64,000 nt of DNA. It comes from an uncultured Akkermansia sp. (GTDB lineage Bacteria > Verrucomicrobiota > Verrucomicrobiia > Verrucomicrobiales > Akkermansiaceae). This document shows positions 44,748-49,534 of this stretch, one piece after another. The translations under genes and the position numbers were made by a program. The DNA lies in contig CANQBZ010000002.1 in the NCBI GenBank assembly GCA_947589295.1, positions 59,981 through 123,980 of the forward strand, in the 5' to 3' direction. The notes under the pieces are model-generated. The model did not search any database. It was given only the letters and a program-made list of their open reading frames with translations, and had not been told where the DNA came from. Each line of letters begins with the position of its first letter. Position 1 is the first letter of the stretch.

Positions 44748-46063
44748 ACAGGGCAAACGCATTAAAAAATTGGATTCATTTTAAGGAAGGAGACAAGTGG
44801 TTCATTTATGCTCTAATTCGTTGCCAAACAATATATCATCGAGTACATCCGTATCCCACGTTGCCCTCAGTCTCAGCCTCTGGAGTGGCACTTTCACCCC
44901 CTCATGACGGGCCTTGTACTGTTTGATCAGTACAAGCGCGAATCTCAAAACTCGCGAAAAGTTCTCTGCACTGTTCCCCTTCCTCTTGCGTCCTCCATCC
45001 TCGTTGAACACCACGTCCAACACCCAATGCAGACTGTTTTCTATACCCCAGTGACTCCTTATGCTCCCTGCAATCTATTGTGCGCTCGCATGCCGATTGC
45101 TCACGATGTAGAAGCGTTGTTCTCGCGTCGTCTTTCCGCTCTTTTTCTCACAGCTCTCTCTGCTCACTCTCACCACCGCCGCTAATCCCTCTCAGTTCCA
45201 TGCTCCGCTAATGTGGCTTAACTCATGGTATAGTTCATACGTACGCGTCTCCACTCGTCCGTGCTCTCCACTCGTCTCCGTGTAGATCGAGTCGGGCTTC
45301 TCCAACTTCGTTGTGTCTTCTATATCCTCCAGAAGCCTCCCCTGGTTCTTTTTCACGGCAAGCACGTAGTACGCTCCTTTCTCTATTATCCTCCTGGCTA
45401 TATCCTTCTGACATCCCATCGCATCTATCGATACCGTGTTCCCCTTCAACTCAAGCGAGTCTATCAACTTGGGAATCGCCGTCACTTCATTGCTCTTCTC
45501 TTCAACTCGAGTTTGTCCCAGCACCAGCCCGCTTTCACTCTCGTACGCACTCACCACGTACACATTGTACTCTTTCCCATACTTGCCCGCCCCACAGATC
45601 GTTTTGCCATCTATGCTGATGTTTCTTCCTGCTGCCTGCTCTCCTGTTTCTTTCTCTCTCCTCTGCCTGAATTCTTCCACCAATTCCCGAAACATACCTT
45701 CAGATCCCTCTCTACTCAACATACGAAATACCCTCGCAAAAGTGTCGGCCGATGGTACCCCTCCGGGCATTTCCGAATACTTGCTGAAGTACTCTGTGTG
45801 ATGGCTTGCGAACTCTTGTATTTCTTCCCATGTTGACATACCGGCCACAACCGCCGCTATCACCATAAAAACGATGTCCGTCAACTTATGTATCTTTGCG
45901 TTGTCGGTTCTTGGATCTTCCATCAGGCTGATTTTTGCAATGAGATGATGCCCCTTGTGTCCTATCATATTTTGTATTTAATATCAACAATTTAAATAAG
46001 TTATTGATACTAAATTCTATGCATCTAATTCTGCCCCCCAGATTTCAAATGCGTTTGCCCTGT
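44748..46063 (-). mobile_element. Decayed ISAs1-family insertion sequence
   Basis: 1316 bp bounded by perfect 16-bp inverted repeats ACAGGGCAAACGCATT at 44748-44763 and its complement at 46048-46063. Inside is one ISAs1-type transposase reading leftward, broken by a frameshift and an in-frame stop. I see no flanking direct repeat of 8-10 bp, so the insertion is old or was rearranged. The element separates the pseudopilin/tilS block from ribH. Confidence 0.85.
44802..45968 (-). pseudogene. ISAs1-family transposase (frameshifted, with internal stop)
   Basis: The first 258 aa (45968-45192) show the N-terminal ISAs1 domain (MEDPRTDNAKIHKLTDIVFM), SIDGKTICGAG with the first Asp of the DDE triad, and SIDAMGCQKDIAR with the second. 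The frame ends after ELSHISGAWN. A one-base shift near 45200 continues as ELRGISAVVRVSRESCEKKS, meets an in-frame TAG after NRHASAQ, and resumes as IRSHWGIENSLHWVLDVVF to 44802 (HWxxEN supplies the last catalytic Glu). Two lesions mean no working transposase from this copy. Confidence 0.85.
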
Positions 46064-46156: not shown

Positions 46157-46633
46157 ATGTCCAGAGAAAGCATCATGAATCCGCCGATGGAGGGACGCGA
46201 CATGCGCGTTACCATTGTGGCATCGGAATACAACAAACGCTACACGGACGCTCTGTTGGGGAGTTGCAGGGAGGAGCTGGCGAGGTTGGCTCCGAACGCG
46301 CGAGTGGACGTGCGACGCGTTCCGGGCGCATTTGAGGTGCCGGTCATGGTGAACCGGGCTCTGGCGATGGCGGAGCATTGCAGGCCGCATGTGGTGATCG
46401 CCCTCGGGGTGATCCTGCGCGGGAGTACGGCTCATGCTGACCTGATAGGCGAGGCGATCACCCGGGAGTTGCTCCATGCCGCGTGCAAGAGCCTGGTGCC
46501 CGTCATTCACGAGGTGTTGCTGCTGCAGGATGAGCAGCAGGCGGAAGAGCGTTGCCTGGGAAATTCGCTCAACCGGGGGCGCGAGGCCGCGCGTGCAGCC
46601 GTAGCCATGTTCCAAGCCACCCAGATGAATTAA
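46157..46633 (+). CDS. ribH: 6,7-dimethyl-8-ribityllumazine synthase
   Basis: 158 aa; the ATG at 46202 (MRVTIVASEYN) is a possible later start. RVTIVASEYNKRYTDALLGS, VRRVPGAFEVPVMV and ALGVILRGSTAHADLIGEAI carry the substrate loops and the catalytic His (TAHAD, usual TPHFD). The C-terminal part (RCLGNSLNRGREAARAAVAM) matches GNKGxEAAxAAIEM. It makes the riboflavin precursor lumazine. nusB follows at 16 bp, the usual ribH-nusB pairing. The segment HEVLLLQDEQQAEER replaces the common FGVLTTDTxEQAxER. Confidence 0.92.
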   Translation: MSRESIMNPPMEGRDMRVTIVASEYNKRYTDALLGSCREELARLAPNARVDVRRVPGAFEVPVMVNRALAMAEHCRPHVVIALGVILRGSTAHADLIGEAITRELLHAACKSLVPVIHEVLLLQDEQQAEERCLGNSLNRGREAARAAVAMFQATQMN

Positions 46634-46649: not shown

Positions 46650-47564
46650 ATGCTCAACCAACGAGGAATCCGCAAATCGGCATTGCTGCTGCTCTATGCG
46701 ATGGAAGCGCAGAGAGTCACTCCCGAATCGCAAGAGACCTTTCCCTTTGACGCCTATTGGACGCTCGTCTCCGAAAATGACAACAAGCGGTACGCAAGAG
46801 CGCTGGCGAAAGCTGTGCTGCACGAGATTCGCGCGTACGATGAACTGCTCACATTGCTGCAAGCCCGCACAACGGCTTTCTGCGCTGCCGCCGCCACTCT
46901 GACCAAACCGCAGACGTTACCGGCACGGGCGCAGGAGCTGCTCAACCTGCTGCAAACCCTGCCCGAGCCGATCCTCTATTTACGTCGGCAAACAGAAAAG
47001 GCGGTTGACGAACAAAGAGACGAGGAGCTTCGGCAACAGAGTGAGAAAGTGATTCACACCTGCGAAAAAATCCATGCGCTTGCGGAAGATATCTTGCCCA
47101 CCCTGGAGAGCGAAACTCGGGGGGCAACCGAGGCATACGCCGCCGCGCTGCGTCGAGTGCAGAAAGCATGCGCCGGTTGTGCACAACTTGCCCACCCGGA
47201 TCGCATCAAGCCTCGCCATGAACACGCCGACCTCGTGCACTACACAGAAACCTTGAACCAACGTCGACCGCTTACCGAACAACTTGCAAAGACCATCTAC
47301 GCCCGCCGCCAAGAATGGGAAAAACTTCTGCACGACTTGCTGCGCAATTATGTGCCCGACAGGCTCAACGTGCTGGACCGCTGCATTCTCTACATCGCTT
47401 TTTACGACCTTGTGGAGCGCGATCTCGACCCAGGCATCGTCATTTCTGAGGCCTGCCTTCTCGCGGATGAATATTCCGGCGGCAAGAGCGCTCCTTTCAT
47501 CCACGGCATCATAGCCACGGCCATCATGCAACTGAAGCCGAAGTCCTACCAATCCAAGCCCTAG
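46650..47564 (+). CDS. nusB: NusB-type antitermination factor with large internal insertion
   Basis: 304 aa, about twice the usual 130-150. The N-terminal NusB helix is clear (NQRGIRKSALLLLYAMEAQR), and so is the C-terminal half (LLRNYVPDRLNVLDRCILYI, then AFYDL, then VISEACLLADEYSGGKSAPFIHGI). Between them (about residues 90-225) is a helical, charged stretch (RQTEKAVDEQRDEELRQQSE, then CEKIHALAEDILPTLES) not found in ordinary NusB. NusB with NusE/S10 binds boxA RNA in rRNA antitermination. The reading frame is intact, so the insert is probably real. ftsY follows at 15 bp. Confidence 0.85.
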   Translation: MLNQRGIRKSALLLLYAMEAQRVTPESQETFPFDAYWTLVSENDNKRYARALAKAVLHEIRAYDELLTLLQARTTAFCAAAATLTKPQTLPARAQELLNLLQTLPEPILYLRRQTEKAVDEQRDEELRQQSEKVIHTCEKIHALAEDILPTLESETRGATEAYAAALRRVQKACAGCAQLAHPDRIKPRHEHADLVHYTETLNQRRPLTEQLAKTIYARRQEWEKLLHDLLRNYVPDRLNVLDRCILYIAFYDLVERDLDPGIVISEACLLADEYSGGKSAPFIHGIIATAIMQLKPKSYQSKP

Positions 47565-47579
47565 TGTCGTCCCACTGCC

Positions 47580-48428
47580 ATGGCCAACTTCTTCAACAAA
47601 CTTGTCGATAAACTACTCGGCGAACCCGTCATCGATTGGGATGCGCTGGAGGCCGATCTCATCTCGGCCGACATCGGCGCTGCACGCGTCGTGCGTATGC
47701 TCGGCGAGCTGCAGGCACGGGATGAGCACGATGCCTGCGAAATTGTCGACTACATCAAACAGCAACTGCGCTCCGCCTTCCCCGCCACCGCGCCTTCCCT
47801 CCCGGTTCCGCAAGATGGCCACCCCTGCATCATCTTGCTCATCGGAGTGAACGGCGCCGGCAAAACGACCACCTGCGCCAAGTTGGCTCACCTGCTGCAA
47901 AAACGCGGGGAGAGCGTGCTCGTGGCAGCGGCGGACACCTTCCGAGCGGCTGCCGTCGAGCAATTGGAGCGTTGGACCACGCGTCTCGGCATTTCCCTCT
48001 ACAAAGGGCAGCCCAACCAGGATCCCGCCTCCGTTTGCTACGAGGCGCATACCCGCGCCTTGGCTGAGAACGTGCATTACCTCATCTGCGACACGGCGGG
48101 ACGCCTGCACACGCGCCACAACCTCATGGAAGAGTTGGCTAAAATCCACCGCTCCCTCGCCAAACAGGATCCTGCCGCCTCACAAACCTGCTATCTCGTG
48201 GTGGATGCCACGACGGGCGGCAACGCTCTCCTGCAAGCACGCGAGTTCCACAAGGCAGCTGCCGTTACCGGTCTCATCATCACCAAACTGGACGGCTCGG
48301 GCAAGGGGGGCGTGGCCGTCGCCGTGCAGGATGAACTGGGAATTTCTCCGGTGTTTGTGGGCACCGGAGAGAGGGAGGACGATTTGCGTCCCTTTGATGC
48401 GCGGAGCTATGTGGACACCCTACTCTGA
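47580..48428 (+). CDS. ftsY: Signal recognition particle receptor FtsY
   Basis: 282 aa. An NG-domain core only: GTPase G1 GVNGAGKTTTCAKLA (about residue 91), VAAADTFRAAAVEQLE, DTAGRLHTRHNLMEEL, TKLDGSGKGGVAVAVQ, and the closing GTGEREDDLRPFDARSYVDTLL. The acidic A domain common at the N-terminus is missing and the protein starts straight at the N domain (ANFFNKLVDKLL). It docks the SRP-ribosome complex to the membrane. rlmN starts 23 bp later. Confidence 0.96.
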   Translation: MANFFNKLVDKLLGEPVIDWDALEADLISADIGAARVVRMLGELQARDEHDACEIVDYIKQQLRSAFPATAPSLPVPQDGHPCIILLIGVNGAGKTTTCAKLAHLLQKRGESVLVAAADTFRAAAVEQLERWTTRLGISLYKGQPNQDPASVCYEAHTRALAENVHYLICDTAGRLHTRHNLMEELAKIHRSLAKQDPAASQTCYLVVDATTGGNALLQAREFHKAAAVTGLIITKLDGSGKGGVAVAVQDELGISPVFVGTGEREDDLRPFDARSYVDTLL

Positions 48429-48451: not shown

Positions 48452-49534
48452 ATGCCAACCGTTCTGCCCATTCTCAGCGGATACACGCGCGCCGAGCTGG
48501 CGACCGCCCTGGCCGAGCTGGGAGAATGTCGCTCATTCCGTGCAACTCAAGTCATGGAATGGATTTGGGAAAAACGGGCGACGAGCTTTGAGCAGATGAG
48601 CAACCTGCCACCCGCCCTGCGCGCTGAACTCGCCAAACGCTACACCTTGCGCCCGCTGACCATCGTCCGGCGCTCACAATCCGGCGCGGGCAGCACGCGC
48701 AAACTGCTCTGCCAAATGCAGGACGGCGAGTTAGTAGAGATGGTGCTCATCCCCGCCGCTGAAGGTAGTGCAGGCGCGCGCAGCAGTCGGCTCACACTTT
48801 GCGTATCTTCTCAGGTAGGCTGCGCTTTTGGTTGTAAATTCTGCGCCAGCGGGCTGCACGGCTTCAAGCGCAACCTTTCCACCGGCGAAATCATCGGACA
48901 AATCTTTGCCGCAGAGCATGAAAGCGGGTAGCGCGTGGATAACCTCGTTTTCATGGGCATGGGCGAACCTCTTGCCAACACCGATCACTTGCTGCCGGCC
49001 CTGCGCCTCATCACCGATCGGCAAGCTCTGGGTCTCAGCCCGCGCCACATCACCATTTCCACCTCGGGCAATGTGCCGGGGCTGAACAAATTGATCGCAA
49101 GCGGCATCCCGGTGAGACTGGCCGTCTCCCTGCACGGGGCAACGGATGACGTGCGCTCGCGGATCATGCCGGTCAACCGGCGTTGGCCGCTCGCCGAACT
49201 CATCCCCGCCTTGGAGACTTGGCAAGCCAACTCCAAGCACATGCTCACGTTCGAATACATCCTGATCTCCGGCGTCAACGATGCACCGCAGCATGCGCAG
49301 GCTCTCAGCGAGCTCGCAAAAAAATTGCATGCCAAGGTCAATCTCATCCCCTACAACCCCGTGCAGGGGCTGGAGTGGCGGCGACCGACAGAAACTGCCT
49401 GCCGTGCGTTCCGGCGTACACTCCTCACCCTGCATATTCCCACCACGATGCGCTACGAAAAAGGCGCAGACATCAACGCCGCATGCGGGCAGCTCCGTCT
49501 GCAACACAGCGAGGAGACTCATCCGCCGGGTTAA
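48452..49534 (+). pseudogene. rlmN: 23S rRNA/tRNA adenine-C2 methyltransferase RlmN, interrupted by one in-frame TAG
   Basis: Two pieces in the same frame form one complete RlmN. 48452-48931 (159 aa) has the N-terminal domain (FRATQVMEWIWEKRATSFEQ) and the radical-SAM motif CAFGCKFCASG (CxxxCxxC). A TAG at 48929-48931 follows EHESG. The frame goes on with RVDNLVFMGMGEPLANTDHL to 49534, including SLHGATDDVRS and the C-terminal catalytic Cys in INAACGQL. Apart from that codon the sequence is intact and typical. RlmN methylates A2503 of 23S rRNA and A37 of tRNAs. Alternatives to a null allele are sequencing error, TAG read-through or recoding; restart at ATG 48956 would give a fragment without the Fe-S Cys. 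Confidence 0.85.

Follow-up and report, generated by a model that had tools for sequence, protein, structure and literature searches.

An in-frame TAG in the only rlmN gene of an Akkermansia species, and the probable repeated loss of RlmN in the genus

In this work, a stretch of 64,000 nucleotides from an uncultured Akkermansia sp. (contig CANQBZ010000002.1; hereafter the window) was found to carry an rlmN gene interrupted by a single in-frame TAG, and different lesions of the same gene were found in other species of the genus. RlmN is a dual-specificity methyltransferase that modifies A2503 of 23S rRNA and A37 of tRNA. We consider it probable that the interruption is recent and real and abolishes RlmN function, that at least four such losses arose independently in Akkermansia, and that this loss is recurrently tolerated, perhaps favoured, in the rabbit gut, which is the origin of all three of the cases with a named source.

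Results

The features of the region are given below, with positions in the window.

45192 to 45968, minus strand: open reading frame of 258 amino acids that resembles H-repeat/ISAs1-type IS transposases, possibly truncated
46157 to 46633, plus strand: ribH, intact; TIGR00114 above its cut-off
46650 to 47564, plus strand: nusB, intact, with TAG as its stop (a normal terminator nearby); TIGR01951 match, under its cut-off
47580 to 48428, plus strand: ftsY, intact, directly 5' of rlmN; TIGR00064 above its cut-off
48452 to 48928, plus strand: 5' half of rlmN, 159 codons, with the N-terminal domain, Cys117 and the CxxxCxxC motif (about 48821 to 48844); residues 1-159 match TIGR00048 at 1.3e-38, and PDB 6fz6 and 3rf9 are matched
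48929 to 48931, plus strand: in-frame TAG, codon 160 of rlmN; translation and comparison with relatives
48935 to 49534, plus strand: 3' part of rlmN, a frame of 199 amino acids from a GTG one codon past the TAG to the TAA, with GMGEP, the remainder of the barrel and Cys345 (TGC at 49484 to 49486); TIGR00048 at 6.1e-62 and PDB RlmN matches

The nusB gene lies two genes 5' of rlmN in the same gene run. Its predicted product has 304 amino acids, of which the NusB model covers residues 197-291 only, and the extra N-terminal part of about 190 residues is also present in relatives.

The rlmN frame (48452 to 49534, plus strand) comprises 361 codons with a terminal TAA, and in its translation the TAG at codon 160 is the sole internal stop. 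The earlier note had described this gene as intact except for one in-frame TAG, and the translation, the profile matches of both halves to TIGR00048 and the presence of the catalytic residues bear this description out. Read through its single TAG, the frame scores 354.9 bits against TIGR00048, for which the cut-off is 290, and since it aligns colinearly with homologues across about 350-360 codons, at up to 90% identity, its match to RlmN is far beyond chance. Cys117, the three cysteines of CxxxCxxC (Cys124, Cys128 and Cys131) and the C-terminal Cys345 are all kept, as seen in the translation and in the alignments with RlmN structures of the PDB, which extend on both sides of the stop. The radical-SAM cysteines are encoded 5' of the TAG, and the second catalytic cysteine, Cys345, is encoded 3' of it together with most of the barrel. 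The gene thus has the identity and the catalytic residues of the uninterrupted rlmN genes found in other Akkermansia and Akkermansiaceae and, within the genus, their usual place beside ftsY, but its own frame stops at codon 160. It is an RlmN by descent, though probably not one that yields a working enzyme.

Codon 160 is a sense codon in the relatives examined, in agreement with the earlier note, which had also supposed a single change from AAG or CAG. The site is variable among relatives (E, Q, T, K, N, V, A), and because the nearest relative, a sister species (G074), has CAA (Gln) at this codon, the stop probably arose from CAG in the last step, other sense codons being possible.

The genome that contains the window (G000) is a draft of 2.24 Mb in 92 contigs, 97.65% complete. 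A profile search of this genome returned no second rlmN and no cfr at E <= 0.001, which leaves the interrupted gene as the sole copy and removes the backup that, according to the earlier note, would make the break neutral. An interrupted frame, the lack of a second copy and little further decay, all three seen here, are what is expected of a recent loss of function or young pseudogene. The suppressor tRNA that had been proposed as a further check was likewise not found, as none of the 41 tRNAs detected in the draft has a CUA anticodon. Since, in addition, release factor RF1 is intact (prfA at G000:C20:104-1153) and nusB terminates at TAG, we rejected reassignment or suppression of TAG, and read-through at a useful rate is also unlikely. 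The tRNA set includes a tRNA-Leu with the anticodon AAG (G000:C47), which is unusual in bacteria.

Two further ways in which RlmN could still be made were considered. In the first, the TAG would be passed at some rate, as the frame that stays open 3' of the stop would allow; a feedback is even conceivable, since UAG read-through is among the phenotypes of rlmN loss in E. coli (works quoted in PMC10117853). Nevertheless, this reading is very improbable, as it has to be set against the tRNA, RF1 and nusB observations, the sense codon at this site in relatives and the occurrence of TGA or frameshifts, rather than TAG, in the same gene of three relatives. In the second, which is more improbable still, re-initiation at the GTG at 48935 would give two polypeptides that together form an active enzyme. 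The GTG lies just past the stop, but no Shine-Dalgarno sequence was evident by eye 5' of it, and the gene is cut elsewhere in the other broken genomes. We know of no split RlmN.

The genus was surveyed with 76 Akkermansia genomes, one genome per species, of which 73 had an rlmN match and about 70 could be assessed for lesions. Besides G000, three genomes carry an interior lesion, each a different one: in the sister species G074 one base is lost near codon 290, where a tract of seven A has become six; in G045, TGG has become TGA at codon 245; and in G046 a G tract near codon 254 is longer by one base. At each of these three sites, close relatives keep an intact frame. Split matches in G011, G017 and G051 were rejected as lesions, as they lie at contig ends, and the stops flagged inside the matches of G006, G024, G027 and G054 are natural frame ends, the alignments being free of stops up to residue 351-355. 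We do not claim a true absence of rlmN in G003, G010 and G013, where ftsY is cut by the contig end (G003) or has no full match (G010 and G013) and assembly gaps are likely. In the wider family, 254 of the 260 genomes searched had an rlmN match, and no interior stop was found outside the genus among the matches listed.

The four lesions differ from one another and lie in separate lineages, as expected of parallel loss. A tree of ftsY calls for at least three origins of the lesions among the four broken genomes and, since the sisters G000 and G074 moreover carry different ones, the losses number at least four. All of them are placed at the tips of the tree. Between G000 and G074, rlmN has a dN/dS ratio of 0.195, which falls among the values of intact pairs (about 0.05-0.28), therefore most of the divergence between the two species passed under constraint and the gene was constrained until recently. 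In a separate comparison, between G045 and G041, dS was 0.037 for rlmN and 0.22-0.45 for the adjacent ftsY, nusB and ribH; as the value is far lower in rlmN than in the genes alongside, recent recombination across rlmN is suggested for this pair.

G074, G045 and G046 are all rabbit ('Lapin') MAGs, and four other Lapin genomes have an intact rlmN. Among those named Akkermansia genomes in which rlmN is complete enough to judge, the gene is broken in 3 of 7 rabbit genomes vs 0 of 28 others (Fisher p = 0.005). This association was spotted in the data before it was tested, and three of the four broken genomes belong to one clade. It covers the three lesions with a named source; G000 is connected with rabbits only through its sister G074.

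The quality of the sequences was judged from other genes. Across the 76 genomes, no interior stop or frameshift was found among the matches listed for ftsY, ffh, MiaB and its paralogue, prfA, prfB, and LepA and its paralogue, eight genes that were read from match tables and that, some being essential, control for error and not fully for relaxed selection. The stops flagged in prfB belong to matches that extend as far as the C terminus. When the four broken genomes are taken together with the four intact Lapin ones, rlmN is broken in 4 of 8, compared with 0 of about 64 control genes (p = 7e-5). RsmG (GidB), intended as the control of a loss-prone methyltransferase, had no match above cut-off in the 76 Akkermansia genomes, and was found in 13 of 14 control genomes. 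Furthermore, when the conserved genes around rlmN (dN/dS under 0.45) were scanned, rlmN alone had a convincing interior lesion among 35 genes in G000, 13 in G074, 37 in G045 and 57 in G046; the other flags were confined to residues 1-60 and look like starts placed too far 5'. A scan without the conservation filter was discarded, being swamped by antisense and over-extended frames.

The clean control genes and the intact conserved genes around rlmN argue against assembly error and against general gene decay. A wrong base at 48929 in a gene that is otherwise intact would be in keeping with a draft in 92 contigs, and, of the other three lesions, two alter a short homopolymer by a single base. However, the 34 other conserved genes of the window show no interior lesion, two of the four lesions are substitutions, and error would not pick rlmN four times; we thus regard this explanation, and likewise a base from a minor strain at this one site, as improbable. 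Of the three options left by the earlier note, namely a recent change, an error or a stop that is read through, a recent and real loss is the one that we favour; error is weakened by the controls, and read-through is unlikely.

Discussion

Our findings are best explained if the TAG is a real and recent nonsense mutation that would inactivate the sole rlmN copy of this Akkermansia species. The protein would be split after its Fe-S motif, and because neither half would contain a complete radical-SAM barrel together with the two catalytic cysteines, it would be expected, from what is known of the family, that m2A2503 is missing from the 23S rRNA and m2A37 from those tRNAs on which RlmN acts. We infer from the sequences that the four lesions are real alleles rather than errors and that enzyme activity is lost in each case.

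Regarding the cause of the loss, we place relaxed constraint and drift slightly ahead of selection. According to the former, which has close to an even chance of being correct, these gut lineages can do without rlmN, and broken alleles are short-lived and bring no benefit; it departs from the explanation given above solely in naming a cause. The recent age of the lesions and their position at the tips of the tree are those expected of neutral or mildly harmful alleles, and rlmN loss causes no obvious growth defect in E. coli, as quoted in PMC10117853. Nevertheless, MiaB and LepA, which are non-essential in E. coli, are free of lesions in the same genomes, and the broken rlmN genes are concentrated in those from rabbits.

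Selection is a possible, though more tentative, cause: the loss of m2A2503 or m2A37 may be favoured in rabbit guts by drugs that act on the peptidyl transferase, by aminoglycosides or by other translation stress. Several drugs that target the ribosome have been used in rabbit rearing (PMC9676498), which makes such selection plausible, and the recurrence of the lesions in rabbit MAGs points in the same direction. In E. faecalis, loss raised the chloramphenicol MIC 16-fold (PMC10336011), in M. tuberculosis a raised linezolid MIC has been linked to it (PMC13158455), and V. cholerae gains fitness without RlmN in sub-MIC tobramycin and gentamicin (PMC10117853). On the other hand, loss of RlmN slightly raises the susceptibility of E. 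coli to some drugs that act on the peptidyl transferase (Toh and Mankin, 2008, quoted in PMC10117853), and the broken genomes hold no cfr, erm or ribosomal-protection tet gene above cut-off. A search of 12 genomes for traces of drug exposure gave no Erm-type second match and no ribosomal-protection tet gene above cut-off. We regard as somewhat doubtful the proposal that rabbit-gut Akkermansia discards RlmN repeatedly and adaptively, which would amount to the parallel loss, in a commensal, of a modification conserved in ribosomes and tRNA, driven by a common pressure, for instance farm drugs.

The loss of RlmN has been described in other bacteria. In M. tuberculosis lineage 4.10, which includes H37Rv, a frameshift truncates the sole copy of an otherwise conserved gene, with a presumed loss of A2503 methylation (PMC13158455), as in the window; that case is one event in one lineage, with a raised linezolid MIC, while in Akkermansia there are at least four events in several species, known from genomes alone. 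RlmN has also been lost or altered in natural populations of S. aureus, by an rlmN mutation in a linezolid-exposed clinical case (PMC2883592) and by inactivation of the gene (LaMarre, 2011, cited in PMC13158455); the former is an in-frame codon insertion under known linezolid exposure, in contrast to a nonsense allele in a commensal. Low-level linezolid resistance accompanies RlmN loss in both S. aureus and M. tuberculosis (PMC13158455). The statement of the earlier note that RlmN loss alters drug sensitivity elsewhere holds as to the existence of effects, but their direction differs between species, resistance rising in E. faecalis, M. tuberculosis and S. aureus and susceptibility in E. coli. 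The kind of event is thus known, whereas its recurrence within one genus and the link with rabbits appear to be new, within the bounds of a limited search of the literature.

The observation of a single stop codon is in this way extended to a case of repeated rlmN loss in a genus. For annotation, some caution is advisable, as such genomes may show rlmN dropped or as two proteins. The modification is widely kept in the family, for a reason that is not settled, and knock-outs that arose naturally and independently in a genus that can be cultured, alongside sister species with an intact gene, provide a comparison set for its role in a gut commensal. The same set may serve to establish whether RlmN loss marks drug exposure.
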